Source: a virus
Direction: 5' to 3' (one strand)
Virus record (IMG/VR): IMGVR_UViG_3300028666_000056
Coordinates: 1-41,299 of that record
DNA length: 41,299 nt
Below the pieces are notes generated by a model. The model did not search any database and was not told the DNA's origin. It saw only the letters and a list, made by a program, of their open reading frames with translations. Made by a program: the position numbers and the translations under genes. Within the stretch, counting starts at the first letter, position 1. Every line of letters starts with the position of its first letter. Shown piece after piece: positions 5,809-15,351 of the stretch.

Positions 5809-8800
5809 TTAGAATCCTTTACTCACTGCAACCACGTTCCATTTGCTCTGGGCAGCATTGTAGATGCAGCCGATGTAATCGGTTTTATTTGCACCACTAG
5901 ATAATACCACAGAAATGATATCGAGGCCGAATGTGAACACTGGGTCAAATGACAAAGTGCGTCCACCTGTAGCATCCTGCGTTATGCGGTATGTGATCTT
6001 TTGACCGTCGACAGGATTGGTTGGAGCCGAAAGATTACGATTGCCCGCGAGAGTGACCGTGAAGGTGTTACCCTTCGAGGCGTCGGTTGCGATGTTTGCG
6101 CCGTCAACCAGAGCTACAACGGCAGTTTTTAAAGCCGTAGTCATCTGAGCTGTTGCGATTTGATCGTTCGTATCGGGCAACACATAGATGCGGTCTGCGG
6201 TGTTTGCAGAGCCATCAAAGGTTCTTACGAAACCATTCGTGCCCTTCCAAGCGAAACGACCGATTGAATCCGAGAAGAGTCTGAAGCCGCTCGTGGGAGT
6301 GCCAGGAGCTGCTGACTGTGAATTATGGCCAGTATATCCAGAACCTGCAGAGCCAGTCACTACCATGCCGCCGTTGATCTGCATCAACTCAACGCCATTG
6401 TCTGTGGTTGTACCTACGAGGATGCGACCAGTGGAATTGATGCGCATGCGTTCAGAAGATGTGGTTGTAGTGGTTGGCGTGGTGCTGAATGAAATGTACG
6501 TCGCCATTGAGGTTGTCGAGAATGTCTCGTCGGCGACGATATTTATAATACCAGTCGAAGATGCGGCGAAGGCAGACGTGCCATACCCGCGACCGCTGAA
6601 GAAGGTCAAAGTAGTTCCAGCAACGGTAGCTGAAGGACTTCCGATGGTTCCAGCGGCTTGTCTTCCACGGAATCCGACATTGGAGCCGTAACCAGTAACT
6701 TGAACGCCCTTTGTTACGCCAGAGCTGTTTACGATGTCGAGTACTGCGTTGGTAGCAGGAGCTGTTCCGATACCAACCGCGTGATTAGTTCCATCAACAA
6801 CGAAATCTGTTGAATTGACGGATAGGGCGGCGAGTGCGGTATTGGTGACTGCTAAAGTGCCGGTGAATGTTTTGTTTCCCGCGAAACTTTGCGTCGAAAT
6901 GTTGACCATGCCAGGAGCTGAAACACTTGCGCTTTGGGCGTAGATGTTATTGGCTGCGTCAATGCTTAAACCGTTTGCAGCTGCGCCATTACCGTCGATT
7001 GCGCCGACTGTTGTAACATATAATAGCATGGCTGCGACGTTGGCGACAGATAGGTCGCTGGGGTTCGCTGTCGCACCAGTGTTATTGCCCTTTAGAGTGT
7101 GGGCAGCCATCTGAGCCAGTTTAGAATTGCTGACTACATTCGCTTGAATGAGAGTTGCACTTTGAGTTCCCGCAACATCACCAGCAAGCGAGCCTGTGAA
7201 AGTAGAAGATGAGCCGGATACGTTTCCGGTTACGTTACCAGTCAGATTAGACGTGATCATGGTCGCTGCGAAATTGCCCGATGCGTCGCGAGTTACGATT
7301 GCATTTGCAGTGTCGGCTGAATCGGCAGTCGTGTTTGCGTTCGGTAAAATGCCGGTGACAGTGCTTGCGCTCAGTGCAAAGCGTGTTGTAACCCAAGTGG
7401 TCGGAGTCGTATCAATAGTGATAGGCGCTGCGGTGGTTTGTCTCCAGACAGAGCCAGCGTAGGTTGTTCCGAGGCGCACCAGCGTCGTGATGAACTGGAA
7501 TGACTGAGTGGTTCCACCAGTGGGGTACCAAGACGGGCGAGTCCAAGCGCCGACGTGGGCTTGCCAAGGACCGTTCTGAGCAGGGGTCGTTTGCGCAGTA
7601 CATAAGACGAGCGTATTATCGGCAGTTGTAACACCGTCGATGGTTTGGAATCCGCTTAGGCCGATGTTCGCGGTCGCGACAACTGCTACAGCTGGCTTGT
7701 TGGCCAGAGAAGCTTTGGTATCTGTAACTGCACCGACCGAGATTGTCGTAACGCCAGTGTCAGTTAACGTAATATCACCAGATACTGTCTGCGGTGCAAA
7801 GACGGTTCCGTTTGAAATCAGGATCTGAGCATCTGTTCCAACGGTGGGCGAGATCGTGTCGAGCTTCGTTTTGTCTGCTGCAGACATAAAACCGTTGGCG
7901 GTCTCAGTTGCGACAGCGTGTAAGGTTGGGCTTGTCTGATTGCCGTGAGCATGGACGTGATCAGCGCGAGCGCCTGAAGGAGATGAACCGACGCCGTTTG
8001 ACGTACCAATTTGAACAGGTACATCGACCGGAACTTCAACGAACAATCCATTTGCGTGAATACTGACAGAAGCCAAGATGCTAGAAACGTCGGCTGCGTC
8101 GGAGGAAAGTTGAAGGTTCGCACTAAGTTGTTGGCCAGTGAGCGTAAGGTGAATCGAATTGGTGTTGAGGATAGTGATGTCACCAGTATTCGAGCCGGAT
8201 ACGTTAGAGGCGGTGACAGTTCCAGAGAACAAACCATTTCCGATCACGTCTAATGCTTGAGCGGGCGTCGGTTGATTGATGCCTACGCGATTGTCGTTCG
8301 TATCTACGACCAGTGTGTTTGCACCAACTAAGAGTGCATCTGCACTCAAGACGTTGATGGTCAATGCGCCAGTCATCGTATCGCCGGATTTCAATACATT
8401 CAAGGAGGCTGCGCCGGTTACGTTACCGACCAAATTGGCTGTGATGGTGGACGCTACAAAGTTGCCAGAGCTGTCTCGGCGAACGATTTGGCTTGCGGTG
8501 TTTGAGGCCGTGGCCGCATTTGCGAGGACTTCTGCAGAGTGGATATTTGCTGCAGACGAACCTCCAACTGAAAGAACAGTCACCGCACCGGAGTGGTTCA
8601 TACTTGCATCGGAAGATAACGACACAAGCTGATACTTCGATGCGGTGCTGTTCCAAACTAAAATTTGCGTATCTGACGGAACGGAATTTGTTACAGCGAA
8701 TCCTTGGATTCCAGTAACAGTTGCAGCTGCAGCTCCTGGGCCTGTAGCTGTCACGTCGCCTGTAAGAGACGTGATCGACGATCCGACTGTCGCGCCGATC

Positions 8801-11182: not shown

Positions 11183-11193
11183 TCTGAAGGTAG

Positions 11194-11222
11194 TTGACTT
11201 GGCCGGTCAAGAATGGCATACT
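11194..11222 (+). promoter_or_regulatory. Promoter 1 of the island with palindromic operator
   Basis: A TTGACT -35 (11194-11199), 17-base spacer and CATACT -10 (11217-11222). The -35 lies in the palindrome TTGACTTGGCCGGTCAA (11194-11210), the first of three island sites of the form TTGACTTnnnnnGTCAA. A repressor here would block the -35. The start site would be about 10 bases before ATG 11239, leaving a very short leader that still holds most of the ribosome site. Confidence 0.55.
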
Positions 11223-11238
11223 GTGTCAGAGGTGGCCC

Positions 11239-11505
11239 ATGTTTGGAAACAAAGAATTGGATGGATTTGAGTACCAAGGGTTCGTGTACAGTTACGACTT
11301 GGAAGTCTCTTCCGACAACTGCAAAACTGACCATTTCGTCACCAAAGACGGCAAGCGCACCGAAATGGATTGGTCGCCGTACTCTAACCCGAGCGCGGAG
11401 GATTTCAAGCTCTGGATTGATCTTGGTATGCCGCGACGCGTCGGAATCGGGCCTTTGAATGAGCGAGATTTGGCCAATCTCAAATTGAAACAAGGACTTA
11501 AATAA
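11239..11505 (+). CDS. Island gene 1: small hypothetical protein
   Basis: An 88-residue protein. I start it at the ATG preceded by AGAGG seven bases away rather than at the upstream ATG at 11194, which lies inside the predicted -35/operator. It contains several aromatics (F-E-Y-Q-G-F-V-Y-S-Y) and a charged C-terminus (N-E-R-D-L-A-N-L-K-L-K-Q). No signal, membrane helix or known domain. It has its own predicted promoter with a palindrome over the -35 and is separated from the next gene by a second promoter of the same design. First gene of the plus-strand accessory island. Confidence 0.65.
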   Translation: MFGNKELDGFEYQGFVYSYDLEVSSDNCKTDHFVTKDGKRTEMDWSPYSNPSAEDFKLWIDLGMPRRVGIGPLNERDLANLKLKQGLK

Positions 11506-11508
11506 AAG

Positions 11509-11537
11509 TTGACTTTTTAAGTCAACTGCGAGATATT
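11509..11537 (+). promoter_or_regulatory. Promoter 2 of the island with palindromic operator
   Basis: TTGACT (11509-11514), 17-base spacer, GATATT (11532-11537). The palindrome TTGACTTTTTAAGTCAA (11509-11525, arms extend by one more base each side) covers the -35. It lies just after the stop of island gene 1. The predicted start site, about 11544, is the first base of a folded RNA element in the leader of the zinc-ribbon gene. Confidence 0.6.
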
Positions 11538-11543
11538 GAGCTA

Positions 11544-11634
11544 GCAAGGTGTCCTGGGTGTAACCAGGCGATGGATAGGTCCCCCGACCCATAAGTCCGG
11601 CATCAAAGCCGGTTCCGGTTAGAACGGGCCTTGC
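11544..11634 (+). ncRNA. Structured leader RNA, cloverleaf-like, not a standard tRNA
   Basis: A closing stem GCAAGG (11544-11549) / CCTTGC (11629-11634) encloses four hairpins: CCTGG/CCAGG (11553-11568), ATGG..GTC/GAC..CCAT (11571-11592), CCGGC/GCCGG (11597-11612) and GTTC/GAAC (11612-11625). This resembles a class II tRNA outline, but arm lengths, the missing T-loop TTCRA and the missing CCA exclude a normal tRNA. It starts at the predicted start site of promoter 2 and ends 18 bases before ATG 11653. It could be a leader riboregulator, a protein-binding site or a tRNA-like decoy. The fold was drawn by eye. Confidence 0.45.
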
Positions 11635-11652
11635 ATTTAACAAAGAGGGTGT

Positions 11653-12057
11653 ATGGATCAGCAAGAATTGTTCGACAATCCAGTGATTCCACCGCCGCCC
11701 GAAGACCACGACGAAGTGGTCAAGCGCGTGACGGTTATTGATGCCCTACCAGGCGGCATCGGCCAGACGGCCCAGCCCTTAGCCGAGCCCATTGAAATTC
11801 TGCATTTCGTTTCGGTGAAGGTCAAGGATAGCCTCGACAAGCCGTCCATCGTGCCCATCAAGCTTATCACCGCCGAACAGGGTATGGAGCTGGTCAAGGC
11901 CGATCAATTCTCGCGGGCGATGGTCCCACAGAAGTCACAGTGCAAGAGCTGTGACGCGGAACTTCCTGCAGATCGTAGCCTTCACTGCCACACGTGCCGC
12001 CCAAGCCTTGGCGAAGATCCTGGTGGTTTCCTTTACTGTGGAGTATCCGGTGAATAA
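11653..12057 (+). CDS. Island gene 2: zinc-ribbon-like protein
   Basis: A 134-residue protein. Residues 1-90 are proline-rich, then acidic, then beta-like (I-L-H-F-V-S-V-K-V-K-D). The C-terminal part holds a likely zinc ribbon: C97-K-S-C100 and, eleven residues later, C112-H-T-C115. Zinc ribbons of this form bind nucleic acid or proteins; role unknown. AGAGGGTGT precedes the ATG. The gene has a 109-base leader whose 91-nt folded element begins at the predicted transcription start. It ends in TAA overlapping the GTG start of the next gene. Confidence 0.65.
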   Translation: MDQQELFDNPVIPPPPEDHDEVVKRVTVIDALPGGIGQTAQPLAEPIEILHFVSVKVKDSLDKPSIVPIKLITAEQGMELVKADQFSRAMVPQKSQCKSCDAELPADRSLHCHTCRPSLGEDPGGFLYCGVSGE

Positions 12058-12286
12058 AAAAGACGTGCTCGTCATTGGCCCGCACGAACTTGGCGCGATC
12101 AAACTCGCTGCACTTCGCGTATTCCATGAAACGCACACCTTGCCGGAAGATGGTAAGGAAGCTCAGATTTACATGATTTTGGAAGGCTTTCACACGTTTT
12201 TGAAGTCGAAGGGGATTGACCCAGGCTTCCGCGTTAAACCAGTAAGGGAGGACCATGGAGACACAACACCACTCGACGATCTCTAA
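12050..12286 (+). CDS. Island gene 3: hypothetical protein (GTG start)
   Basis: A 78-residue protein. A longer frame opens at an ATG at 11951, but that would overlap the zinc-ribbon gene by 107 bases. The GTG at 12050 has GGAG six bases before it and overlaps the preceding stop by only eight bases, so I choose it. The protein is mixed helix/strand (V-L-V-I-G-P-H-E-L-G, L-E-G-F-H-T-F-L-K-S-K-G) with an acidic C-terminus. No family recognised. It overlaps the next start by 32 bases. Confidence 0.6.
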   Translation: MNKKDVLVIGPHELGAIKLAALRVFHETHTLPEDGKEAQIYMILEGFHTFLKSKGIDPGFRVKPVREDHGDTTPLDDL

Positions 12287-12467
12287 GCCGAGAAAGTTGA
12301 ATAAAGAGCAGAAGGCTTTGCGGTTGGAATTGGCCAAAGTTGCTATGGCGGCGATTATTGCCAAGCATCCTCCCGTTACGAACGATGGCATTGGCGAAAT
12401 CTATGATCAGGTTGCGGTCGGTGCGTTTTCCTATGCCGATGCGATGATGAAGGAAATGGCCAAATGA
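12255..12467 (+). CDS. Island gene 4: small helical protein
   Basis: A 70-residue, basic-to-amphipathic helical protein (K-L-N-K-E-Q-K-A-L-R-L-E-L-A-K-V-A-M-A-A-I-I). A very strong GGGAGG sits directly before the ATG. It overlaps the upstream gene by 32 bases and the next by four (ATGA), so it is part of a coupled chain leading into the glycosylase-like gene. Function unknown. Confidence 0.6.
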   Translation: METQHHSTISKPRKLNKEQKALRLELAKVAMAAIIAKHPPVTNDGIGEIYDQVAVGAFSYADAMMKEMAK

Positions 12468-13015
12468 AGGTTTTGTTCATAGGCGCAAACCCATCACCGA
12501 AAAATACCGACGCGACGGTTCCTTTTGAAGGAACTCAGTCCGGCGAGATTTTAAAGACGTGGATTCATATCCTCGGGATCAAACCTGAAGATTGTGGATT
12601 TTTGAACATCAGCGACACGGTGACAAAGGAAGTTTCGCAGATCAAAAAGAAGGATATCGACATTCAGACATTTTTCTTCAACGTATGCATGAAGAGCGCC
12701 GAAATGTTTCACGGGCAGCCGCTCGCGACGCTGATCTTGAGCGCCAAGCTCCAAAGCGAAAACCGACTCAACGCGGCATTTGAAAAGCAGTCTGACGCGG
12801 ATCTGAAAAAGCACCTCGCACTTATGGATGAAACGGATATGCCCAAAATCATTCCGCTGGGTAAGCTAGCGGCGTGGGGTATTGAGCAGACAGGCCTGGA
12901 GTTTCACGAACTTCCGCATCCTTCTGGCCGGAACCGTAAACTCAACGATAAGGACGCGCTGCAGAAAACGCTTGATGATTGTCGGGCGTGGTTGTATAGT
13001 GAACCTGTTAAGTAA
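12464..13015 (+). CDS. Island gene 5: uracil-DNA glycosylase superfamily protein
   Basis: A 183-residue protein with both hallmark motifs of the UDG/MUG fold: the N-terminal I-G-A-N-P-S loop (residues 6-11, the catalytic water-activating loop in many families) and the C-terminal H152-P-S-G-R-N loop that inserts into the DNA minor groove. The first loop has Asn where family 1 enzymes have Asp, as in MUG/TDG-type members. Such enzymes remove uracil or mismatched bases from DNA. No four-Cys iron-sulfur set of family 4/5 is visible. Many phage members of this fold are uncharacterised and may act on modified bases. Start overlaps the previous stop (ATGA). The promoter of the next gene lies in its 3' end. 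Confidence 0.7.
   Translation: MKVLFIGANPSPKNTDATVPFEGTQSGEILKTWIHILGIKPEDCGFLNISDTVTKEVSQIKKKDIDIQTFFFNVCMKSAEMFHGQPLATLILSAKLQSENRLNAAFEKQSDADLKKHLALMDETDMPKIIPLGKLAAWGIEQTGLEFHELPHPSGRNRKLNDKDALQKTLDDCRAWLYSEPVK
12972..13000 (+). promoter_or_regulatory. Internal promoter for island genes 6-7
   Basis: TTGATG (12972-12977), 17-base spacer, TATAGT (12995-13000), located in the 3' end of the glycosylase-like gene. It would give the basic protein and the Rrf2-like regulator their own transcript starting near 13007, just before the palindrome at 13018-13032. Confidence 0.5.
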
Positions 13016-13017
13016 AC

Positions 13018-13032
13018 TTACCTCGGAGGTAA
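13018..13032 (+). promoter_or_regulatory. Perfect 15-bp palindrome containing the ribosome site
   Basis: TTACCTCGGAGGTAA is a perfect palindrome around a central G and includes the GGAGG of gene 6 (ATG at 13036). As DNA it could be an operator at about +12; as RNA it can pair TTACC with GGTAA and hide part of the ribosome site. It differs from the TTGAC palindromes, so it may answer to another factor. Confidence 0.5.
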
Positions 13033-13035
13033 ACA

Positions 13036-13518
13036 ATGGTTAAAGCACTCAAATTGTCGGCGAAGGATTTAAGATATCCTCTTCAGCAACTATTGGAGAA
13101 TCTCGCCGTCATCCACAATAACCGCGCATACACGGGTTACGTCTTCTTCGCTGAATCTGATCTGAAAGAGTTGCGACGCAACTACCGCCGATTGGTTCGC
13201 AAGGAATTCCCAAAGGCTAAGAAGTATGCCATCGACGCGAAAGTGAATGAGTATTTCTATTCACTCTCCACGAACATGAGCCTTGAAAAAGTGGTCAAGC
13301 CTGGATTTGTCTTAGTGGATTATGATGGGATCGGCAACAGCATTCGTAAGCTGGAAGAAAATGAGCGTGAAGAGCAGGCCCGCAAATACGCTGCCGAGCG
13401 TCTGATGTTGGAAGATGCAGCGGCTAGGGCCGAGCACGCCAAATACAATCATGCGTTGTTACCCAGGTGCGTGGTCAAGTTTTTCGTCGATAATTTTGGA
13501 GAGCCCACACGGAGCTAA
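13036..13518 (+). CDS. Island gene 6: hypothetical basic protein
   Basis: A 160-residue protein, rich in Lys/Arg in its first half (L-R-R-N-Y-R-R-L-V-R-K-E-F-P-K-A-K-K) and with a long charged helix around 108-140 (L-E-E-N-E-R-E-E-Q-A-R-K-Y-A-A-E-R). The composition would suit nucleic-acid binding, but no named domain is seen. A strong GGAGG ribosome site lies within a perfect palindrome, and a TTGATG-N17-TATAGT promoter lies upstream in the glycosylase gene. So it can be expressed separately from genes 2-5, together with the regulator gene that starts one base after its stop. Confidence 0.65.
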   Translation: MVKALKLSAKDLRYPLQQLLENLAVIHNNRAYTGYVFFAESDLKELRRNYRRLVRKEFPKAKKYAIDAKVNEYFYSLSTNMSLEKVVKPGFVLVDYDGIGNSIRKLEENEREEQARKYAAERLMLEDAAARAEHAKYNHALLPRCVVKFFVDNFGEPTRS

Positions 13519-13519
13519 G

Positions 13520-13864
13520 ATGAAGATGCCTGAGAAGGTTCGGCTATCGGTCGACCTTATCAAATTCCTGAAAAATCTCCCTGACGACAAGCCGCGCCGA
13601 GTGAAAGACTTGGCTGCGGTGCTCGGCACTACGGAGAATTTTCTTCACCAGATCGTTTGCCATCTGAATAAAGAAGGCATGATCTATGTGACCAAGGGTC
13701 CATACGGCGGAGTTCGCGCTGCGGAGCCACATAAGGACGTCAACTTGCTTGATATCTATCGTTTGTTTGGGTATATGCTTGGCATCAAAGCTGGCACCAA
13801 CTTGACTTACAGTGATCGGATTGAAAACAAGATTCGCGACTTTATTTCTACGTTTGTTATTTGA
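13520..13864 (+). CDS. Island gene 7: Rrf2-like winged-helix regulator
   Basis: A 114-residue protein matching the Rrf2 pattern. A helix-turn-helix segment (V-K-D-L-A-A-V-L-G-T-T, about 28-38) leads into F-L-H-Q-I-V-C-H-L-N-K-E-G (41-53), then a wing Y-V-T-K-G-P-Y-G-G-V (56-65) and the typical D-V-N-L-L-D-I-Y-R-L-F-G (73-84). Usual Rrf2 proteins run 130-160 residues with three Cys for an Fe-S cluster after this point. This one lacks them, so it probably does not sense through a cluster. I start it at the ATG preceded by GGAG; a longer frame from 13415 would overlap gene 6 deeply. It is the best candidate to bind the TTGACTTnnnnnGTCAA sites; one of these overlaps its own stop codon. Confidence 0.75.
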   Translation: MKMPEKVRLSVDLIKFLKNLPDDKPRRVKDLAAVLGTTENFLHQIVCHLNKEGMIYVTKGPYGGVRAAEPHKDVNLLDIYRLFGYMLGIKAGTNLTYSDRIENKIRDFISTFVI

Positions 13865-13894
13865 CTTGATTAGTCAACTGTTTTGCGTTACACT
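13861..13894 (+). promoter_or_regulatory. Promoter 3 of the island with palindromic operator
   Basis: The palindrome TTGACTTGATTAGTCAA (13861-13877) overlaps the stop codon of the regulator gene and covers a TTGATT -35 (13866-13871). A 17-base spacer then leads to TACACT (13889-13894). Drives the secreted protein and the collagen-like lipoprotein genes. Third member of the TTGACTTnnnnnGTCAA set. Confidence 0.6.
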
Positions 13895-13922: not shown

Positions 13923-14378
13923 ATGAAGAAGTTTTTAATTTTAGCCCTGTTCTCGTTAGCGGTACATGCAGAAGAGAAGTCCGTCACTCAGAGCGGAAAC
14001 ACCATCAACATCAACGTGAACAAAGGTGGATGCTGCGAGCCGAAGTGCAAGCAACAGAAACCTAAAGTGATCACAAAGACCGTAGTCAAGGAAGTAATCG
14101 TTGAGAAGCCGGTCGAAGTGATCGTTGAAAAACCTGTCGACCACACTATCTATGTGACCAAAACGGTCACTAAGAAAGTTCAAAAGAAAAACCGCATTTC
14201 TCTGTTGGGCGGATTAGGTCCGACCCGAATCGACCAACCTCAGAACAACCGCGTGGATTTAATCCGTGGTCCTGTGGGCGGCGCGATGTATCAACGCATG
14301 TTGAACGAATCCTTGAGTGTAGGTATTCAAGGGCAAACCAACCAGACAGTGCTCGGCACCGTCGGCTTTGATTTCTAG
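13923..14378 (+). CDS. Island gene 8: secreted protein with Val/Glu/Lys/Pro repeats
   Basis: A 151-residue protein with a clean signal peptide: K-K, then a hydrophobic core ([10 protein letters not shown]), with A-V-H-A as cleavage site at about 16-17. The mature part has a Cys-rich spot (G-G-C-C-E-P-K-C), then repeated E-V-I-V-E-K-P-V units (about 59-77) and a basic [12 protein letters not shown]. It ends in a beta-like domain closing in V-G-F-D-F, a hydrophobic, Phe-terminal end often seen in outer-membrane beta structures. Likely periplasmic or envelope-associated. GGAGG precedes the ATG, and the gene has its own promoter with the island palindrome over the -35. It probably shares its transcript with the lipoprotein gene. 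Confidence 0.75.
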
Positions 14379-14391
14379 AAAGGAATCACAA

Positions 14392-15324
14392 ATGAAACAA
14401 ATCATCTTAGCACTCAGTCTAGTTTTGTTGAGCGGATGCGGGCGAGTAATGGACTCCCGCTTTATGAGCGCACCTGGCGGCGGTAACACGCTGACGGAAA
14501 CGCCCGCTACTCCGGCACAATGCCCGAATGGTGGAACAGTTTTGAATGTCAACGGAAACCAATCCATCGTTTGTAACGGTGCTCCTGGAGCCAACGGTTC
14601 CAACGGCAGCAATGGATCGAATGGTGCAGCTGGTCCGCAAGGTCCTGCAGGTGCCACTGGAGCCCAAGGCGCTACAGGAGCCACGGGCGCTACAGGTGCA
14701 ACGGGAGCCACTGGTGCTACCGGCGCAGCTGGCCACAACGGTACTAATGGAACGAACGGGACCAATGGAACCAACGGCACCAACGGCACCAATGGAACCA
14801 ATGGAACCAACGGAGCGGGTTATCAGCCTGGTTTGTTGTGTGACGTTTATTCCATCAAACAAGCTGACGAGAATGGTACTGTGAATTGGAATACCCTATT
14901 ATCCGATGGGACTTTCAAATTCTCGACCGTACTTGCAAACTTGAATGTGCCGAACCAAAGCGCAAATGATTTGTTCGCCAGCTTCACCGCAGCGCAGCAA
15001 GCTTTGCTCGGATACACAGACTATGCCCTGGACTGCAGTGGCTACATCAACGTACCTGAGACGGGACTTTACAATCTCGTGCAAGGCAGTGATGATGGTT
15101 CTGAATTGGCAATCGACAACACGATCTTGATCAACATGCCTGACTTGCAACCCTATGCAACTTCGAGCAAGCAGGTTCAATTGTTCGCCGGTCGCCACAC
15201 CTTCAACGTGCTTTACTTCCAAGGTCCTCAGACCAACATCGGTCTGACTTTGACTTGGCAAGGTCCTGCCAATCAAGGCTTAGGCGCTGCAGTGACTGTC
15301 CCCGCGTCAGCGTTTACCCATTAA
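14392..15324 (+). CDS. Island gene 9: collagen-like lipoprotein with PA14-type domain
   Basis: A 310-residue lipoprotein. Residues 1-16 are a signal peptide with lipobox L-L-S-G-C (C16 lipidated; +2 Gly favours outer-membrane sorting). Residues 63-143 are Gly-X-Y repeats in two blocks, G-A-T and then N-G-T. The C-terminal half (about 150-310) resembles a PA14 domain: V-P-E-T-G-L-Y, then [23 protein letters not shown], and L-T-W-Q-G-P. PA14 domains bind glycans. The product would form a collagen-like trimer rod on the host cell carrying lectin heads, so it is probably a host-surface cargo gene rather than a virion part. I chose the ATG with AAGGA eight bases before it. A strong terminator follows. 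Confidence 0.85.
14640..14817 (+). repeat. Tandem 9-base repeats coding for collagen-like Gly-X-Y
   Basis: Tandem short repeats inside the lipoprotein gene, in two blocks: variations of GGTGCTACAGGAGCCACG (Gly-Ala-Thr) and then of AACGGCACCAATGGAACC (Asn-Gly-Thr). Such repeats change copy number easily by slippage, so the rod length of the protein may vary between isolates. Confidence 0.85.
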
Positions 15325-15331
15325 ACGAAAA

Positions 15332-15351
15332 AGGCCAGGTTTCCCTGGCCT
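15332..15351. terminator. Bidirectional rho-independent terminator
   Basis: AGGCCAGG (15332-15339), loop TTTC, CCTGGCCT (15344-15351). TCTTTTATT follows on the plus strand; on the minus strand the hairpin is followed by TTTTCGTTT. It separates the plus-strand lipoprotein gene from the convergent minus-strand tail tube gene and stops both transcripts. Confidence 0.9.

Follow-up and report, generated by a model that had tools for sequence, protein, structure and literature searches.

In the 41.3-kb viral contig IMGVR_UViG_3300028666_000056 (41,299 nucleotides, analysed whole and called the window here), a plus-strand island at 11.2-15.3 kb interrupts a region in which most genes lie on the minus strand. 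The island carries three 17-base palindromes and a gene for a small protein resembling Rrf2-family regulators. We consider it probable that this protein is an autoregulated repressor that acts at sites of the IscR type-1 class, blind to iron-sulphur (Fe-S) clusters, and that it switches off counter-strand operons nested within blocks of late genes.

The window is 99.98% identical, over the 16 kb compared, to an IMG/VR contig of 65,369 bases (the contig, below). Relatives were sought with an alignment of two tail sheath sequences, which reached 22 loci. The phage belongs to a family of large, contractile-tailed phages. Its closest named relative is Myxococcus phage Mx1, a phage of 169.6 kb whose tail sheath scores 36% along the full length. 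Two sister phages, G2 (97.9 kb, with a near-copy, L013) and G3 (155 kb), have tail sheaths 61-63% identical, and their islands keep the gene order of this phage's island, including an orthologue of the Rrf2-like gene (47-53% identity). This phage, G2 and G3 are the three carriers referred to below.

All three palindromes are present as an earlier, sequence-only reading of the window described them (Table 1), and the stop codon of the regulator gene (13862-13864) does overlap the third. That reading reported none elsewhere, which holds for the exact form TTGAC-N7-GTCAA throughout the window and the contig but not for degenerate forms, a fourth site being found outside the window. It also placed each palindrome over the -35 of a promoter with a 17-base spacer. 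This is so at sites 1 and 2, where the -35 is TTGACT; at site 3, however, the hexamer so spaced is a different one inside the palindrome, TTGATT at 13866 (with a -10, TACACT, at 13889), and the palindrome's own TTGACT would leave a spacer of 22 bases. Families of three 5-7-5 inverted repeats arise in 24 of 200 shuffled sequences (12%), so the repeat count by itself is not decisive. The palindromes exceed chance in that they cluster within 2.7 kb, share an extra TT and stand at three operon starts (operon 2 spans 11653-13864 and operon 3 spans 13923-15324). With both strands of the 65.7 kb counted, TTGAC occurs 246 times, and GTCAA follows at +7 in six of these (the three palindromes, each read twice), where 0.24 would be expected, a 25-fold excess. 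The strong part of the case against chance, though, is comparative. A weak dyad, ATCTTTTACCTGCGAAGTCAACTAT, also lies in the window at 1606-1630, immediately upstream of a minus-strand gene (1303-1593); it has no clear -10 and is probably due to chance.

The aligned promoters of orthologous genes in the sister phages show the pattern ATASTTGACY...GTGGACTAT..GATAMT, with conservation that reaches past the -35 into the spacer and the bases preceding the -10. The promoters of the sister islands share a 29-base pattern, ATASTTGACY-N6-RTGGACTATNNGATAMT, with other promoters of the same genomes, the island ones starting with TTAT. A matrix was built from four sister promoters, without any promoter of this phage; its best match in the 65.7 kb of this phage is contig position 5836, and its second best is site 2. 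This argues that the palindromes belong to a conserved class of operator-promoters, from whose other members they have diverged.

This class resembles the type-1 binding sites of IscR, whose consensus in Escherichia coli is ATASYYGACTRWWWYAGTCRRSTAT (PMC3899308). The iscR promoter of Pseudomonas aeruginosa has two putative type-1 sites, of which ATAGTTGACCTAATTACTCGGATAA is one, and they overlap elements recognised by RNA polymerase (PMC3899308). The match was made post hoc, the consensus having been recognised after the sister promoters were seen, but the consensus is fixed by the literature and was not fitted to these data. By score (the match is scored, not exact), sites 3 and 2 come out on top in this phage, with 32 and 31 of 39; G2 reaches 35 and 32, and G3 34 and 33. 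Scores of at least 31 are reached by 10 sites in the three carriers against 0.43 expected from shuffles, some of the 10 probably being chance matches within coding sequence, and by 2 against 1.6 in the seven other, more distant family genomes, where type-1-like sites occur at chance level only. One high-scoring match, at contig position 1191, falls inside a coding sequence and was discounted as probably accidental. Not one of 400 permuted palindromic consensuses attains the observed maxima in all three genomes. On the strength of these matches, the palindromes are predicted to be operators of the IscR type-1 class.

The operator stands at nine promoters: four in this phage (one outside the window), two in G2 and three in G3. 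It is shared by orthologous promoters: operon 2 has it in all three phages; in G2 and G3 so does a gene for a protein of 260-265 amino acids; and the operon 1 gene has a homologue (59%) in G3 that lies off the island at 33.5 kb, immediately behind an operator. The predicted regulon is not confined to the island; the fourth site of this phage precedes a plus-strand operon outside the window. The idea of a single regulon, with its sites in a repressor-like position, survives and extends to the sister phages. By crude gene calls, eight of the nine promoters drive operons that run against the main gene direction and are embedded among genes that follow it; the remaining one (G3, 33.5 kb) is surrounded by genes of mixed orientation but shares its strand with the other G3 sites. 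In all three carriers, the regulator's own operon is under such an operator.

The regulator itself was correctly taken for a winged-helix protein of the Rrf2 family: PF02082 matches it with an E-value of 3.7e-14 and 53.4 bits, against a curated cut-off of 30, and the predicted fold agrees. The match to the NCBIfam model of the Rrf2 superfamily, TIGR00738, is 46.3 bits, under the cut-off of 73.3. An AlphaFold model (mean predicted local distance difference test score 78, from an alignment of three sequences) contains a confident winged helix-turn-helix and a short C-terminal helix at low confidence, through which the protein is only predicted to dimerise. Foldseek's top structure matches for this model are IscR, CymR, NsrR and RsrR, and it matches NsrR-DNA structures too. 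The protein falls far below the equivalog cut-offs of IscR (TIGR02010; 17.4 bits against 207.55) and CymR (26 against 195). A genome contig scan gave no cellular relatives, phage and plasmid collections gave only remote Rrf2 matches, and no study of a phage-encoded Rrf2 protein was found by title or abstract in the open-access literature.

The cysteines that bind an Fe-S cluster are indeed absent, as the sequence-only reading had said: the sole cysteine is C47, and the IscR ligands C92, C98, C104 and H107 have no counterparts. The alignment with IscR runs without gaps through the recognition helix, where L-H43-Q replaces the L-E43-Q of IscR. His43 (in the IscR register) is found in three of three orthologues, and N40, H43 and Q44 are conserved. 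In IscR, Glu43 hinders the cluster-free protein from binding type-1 sites, and the substitution E43A relieves the hindrance (PMC3899308). A protein with no cluster and no Glu43 has the profile that one would expect of a constitutive type-1 binder, although this is an argument rather than a test.

Put together, the computed features (the sites, the promoter-like elements, the predicted fold, the missing ligands, His43 and the comparative conservation) lead us to infer a mechanism in which a dimer of the Rrf2-like protein would bind the operators and block RNA polymerase. Since the operators cover the -35 and the spacer, occlusion of the polymerase, hence repression, is the most likely consequence. 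The promoters are near-consensus for sigma-70, so operons 1-3 and the fourth counter-strand operon would fire immediately upon infection; the accumulating regulator would then shut off its own operon plus the others. The regulator gene closes an operon that its own operator would control, so the simplest dynamics would be early expression and, afterwards, shut-off by autorepression. Because the protein has neither cluster ligands nor Glu43, its binding to type-1-like sites would be irrespective of Fe-S status.

Early expression and shut-off fit better than the earlier suggestion that the cargo genes are expressed independently of the lytic programme, which was not adopted because no tyrosine integrase (PF00589) was matched in seven family genomes (serine recombinases were not searched for, and most contigs are fragments). 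Nor did any CI/Cro-type helix-turn-helix protein (HTH_3, PF01381) match over the cut-off in four genomes, the carriers included (again, mostly fragments). The combination of integrase and CI/Cro-type protein that marks the immunity region of a temperate phage is thus missing from the genomes searched for each.

Several observations weigh against the proposed repressor and its regulon. The consensus scan places site 1 lower than its best-scoring sites, and the top score of this phage, taken alone, is marginal, being reached in 4 of 100 shuffles. The exact palindrome is present in neither G2 nor G3. This was briefly taken to refute the regulon, a conclusion dropped once the aligned sister promoters showed the same dyad in degenerate form. 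The right arm of the operator is AGTCAA in this phage and GTGGA in the sisters, despite the conservation of N40, H43 and Q44. The three carriers form one clade, so the co-occurrence of sites and regulator amounts to a single evolutionary event. Two more family genomes, G4 and G5, carry divergent Rrf2 proteins (PF02082) and no such sites, which weakens the presence or absence of Rrf2 as a predictor of the sites. Finally, and this is the weightiest objection, in the 23 contigs with the dyad ATASTTGACYNNNNYRGTSRACTAT other than G2 and G3, PF02082 has no match, and one of the phages concerned, G030 (IMGVR_UViG_3300005805_000078), has about 12 copies of the dyad, mostly upstream of TTGCC-type promoters.

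Two divergent Rrf2-like genes, each in another member of the family, may be described here. One, L016:12455-13821(-), lies next to a gene that by eye is ThyX-like; the other, G004:108832-109168(-), has Glu at position 43. Type-1-like sites do not exceed chance in either genome.

The dyad in unrelated phages comes from a scan of the viral collection for ATASTTGACYNNNNYRGTSRACTAT, which returned 26 stretches; a viral-contig scan for TTGACTTNNNAAGTCAA returned at least 119, too many to inform. In several unrelated phages with a readable promoter, the dyad precedes the -35 and so has another geometry than in the window. The copies in G030 have the form AGTTGACY-N5-RGTCRACT and occupy 44.7-59.0 kb (loci L241 and L259); this phage encodes a protein that by eye is PstS-like, and no Rrf2 gene was detected in it. 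The placement of the copies suggests an activator-like regulon. Another group of related viral contigs (L222, L223, L230-L233, L235, L237 and L242) shares a near-identical block, ATAGTTGACCGGTTTGGTCGACTATTATACAGGGTATTGAC, with a promoter behind it, and one stretch of the group that was tested had no match in the phage collection. In phages that have the dyad but no detected Rrf2, its reader may be the host's IscR or another phage protein.

This bears on who reads the sites in the window. Perhaps IscR or another Rrf2 regulator of the host binds them, so that the phage operons read the Fe-S or redox state of the host, with the phage protein either controlling other targets or competing against the host's IscR. 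The fit of the sites to the E. coli consensus is what this would predict, and the dyad does turn up in unrelated phages with no detected Rrf2 gene. Within the family, however, the sites are limited to the clade with this Rrf2 orthologue, the regulator's own operon is under the operator in all three carriers, and several of the unrelated phages use the other geometry. We judge a host reader unlikely on balance. It is more doubtful still that the dyads serve a different regulator of the phage, whose gene would lie beyond the recovered fragment, with the Rrf2-like protein incidental. The contig is a fragment, and phages without Rrf2 use the same dyad, so another protein can read it, but the Rrf2 gene sits inside the regulon, operators of this class are typical of the Rrf2 family, and the carriers gave no HTH_3 match over the cut-off.

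The least probable account, and a very improbable one, is that the repeats are sigma-70 -35 elements with accidental dyad symmetry or, at site 2, the hairpin of a terminator on the opposite strand. TTGAC is after all the -35 consensus, three-copy families of 5-7-5 repeats are not rare in shuffles, as noted above, and the hairpin at site 2 has a T run behind it on the minus strand. Such an origin would explain neither the 25-fold excess of the right arm nor the result of the consensus scan, nor the conservation that orthologous promoters show beyond the -35, both within the spacer and ahead of the -10.

Table 1. Features of the plus-strand island and the related site outside the window. Positions are those of the window unless marked.
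Feature	Position	Strand	Remark
Operator 1, type-1-like dyad GTAGTTGACTTGGCCGGTCAAGAAT	11190..11214	+	palindrome 11194-11210; aligned to IscR type-1 consensus
Promoter 1, TTGACT-17-CATACT	11194..11222	+	
Operon 1 gene, 88 amino acids (MFGNKELDGFEY...)	11239..11505	+	
Operator 2, AAAGTTGACTTTTTAAGTCAACTGC	11505..11529	+	perfect palindrome 11509-11525
Promoter 2, TTGACT-17-GATATT	11509..11537	+	
Structured leader RNA	11544..11634	+	at predicted 5' end of operon 2 transcript; sister copies L019:15477-15572(-), L033:15477-15572(-)
Operon 2 gene 1, 134 amino acids, C-terminal CxxC...CxxC zinc-ribbon-like segment	11653..12057	+	50% identity in sister phages
Operon 2 gene 2, 78 amino acids	12050..12286	+	kept in sister phages
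Operon 2 gene 3, 70 amino acids	12255..12467	+	
Operon 2 gene 4, 183 amino acids, uracil-DNA-glycosylase superfamily	12464..13015	+	PF03167, E 2.3e-10; 46-48% in sister phages
Operon 2 gene 5, 160 amino acids, conserved	13036..13518	+	from sister-phage comparison
Rrf2-like regulator, 114 amino acids, final gene of operon 2	13520..13864	+	profile, predicted fold, alignment
Operator 3, TTATTTGACTTGATTAGTCAACTGT	13857..13881	+	palindrome 13861-13877; top type-1 consensus score in this phage
Promoter 3, TTGATT-17-TACACT	13866..13894	+	read from sequence
Operon 3 gene 1, 151 amino acids, predicted secreted	13923..14378	+	not in sister-phage islands
Operon 3 gene 2, 310 amino acids, lipoprotein-like, collagen repeats and PA14 domain	14392..15324	+	not in sister-phage islands
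Intrinsic terminator, island end	15332..15351	+	
Fourth site, degenerate, ATAGTTGATCATTTAGGTAGACTAT	contig 5832-5856 (window -18539)		before plus-strand operon at contig 5871-6759

Operon 3, missing from the sister islands, resembles captured cargo set between the regulator and the terminator. Operon 2 begins with a structured leader RNA that is conserved in the three phages and that starts near the predicted +1 in this phage and G3. It is a multi-helix junction of a closing stem and four hairpins; a C-rich loop, which reads AUCCCCCU in the sister copies, is conserved. Its folding z-scores are -6.1 and -5.8 in the sisters and -2.1 in this phage, and a covariance model built from the sisters matches the window copy at the orthologous place with an E-value of 0.025 in 1.18 Mb, several pairs having been lost. 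No Rfam family matches it, and its identification as a tRNA or other Rfam RNA was unsupported; possibly it is a cis-regulatory or a processed RNA.

Among known systems, IscR with its type-1 sites (those of the E. coli and P. aeruginosa iscR promoters, for example) is close in its Rrf2 winged-helix fold and the gapless register of the recognition helix, in the 25-bp dyad of type-1 kind overlapping polymerase recognition elements and, if our reading is right, in autoregulation of its own operon. The phage protein differs in its length of 114 amino acids, in lacking the Cys and His cluster ligands, in having His43 for Glu43, and in its predicted targets, phage operons rather than Fe-S biogenesis. 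CymR, which senses cysteine status via CysK, and other cluster-free Rrf2 regulators share with it the Rrf2 fold, the lack of a cluster and (by prediction) the role of repressor, but the phage operator, unlike that of CymR, is like the type-1 site of IscR. Cro is an autorepressor of phage early genes, and a functional analogy with it may be drawn, as the regulator lies within its own operon, predicted to be early, and would act on near-consensus promoters. The fold is another, and since no integrase or HTH_3 repressor partner was found, a lysogeny switch is not indicated.

A wider proposal is offered tentatively, as one that we think less likely to be right than wrong: that a phage lineage took up a regulator of the IscR type, shed both its Fe-S sensor and its Glu43 gate, and employs it, blind to the cluster, to repress counter-strand operons from type-1 sites. 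Since the phage operators resemble host IscR sites, there may be cross-talk, host IscR acting at the operons of the phage and the phage protein at the isc promoter of the host. Sites of the IscR type may also be a recurrent regulatory input of phages, as is suggested by the dyad of unrelated phages that have no Rrf2. If the proposed repressor is real, comparison of three genomes would have given a phage Rrf2-like regulator a predicted operator and regulon, and the regulator would be a natural counterpart of the laboratory result that loss of Glu43 lets IscR without a cluster bind type-1 sites. It would also raise the question of whether phages tap, or override, the iron-sulphur regulator of their hosts.

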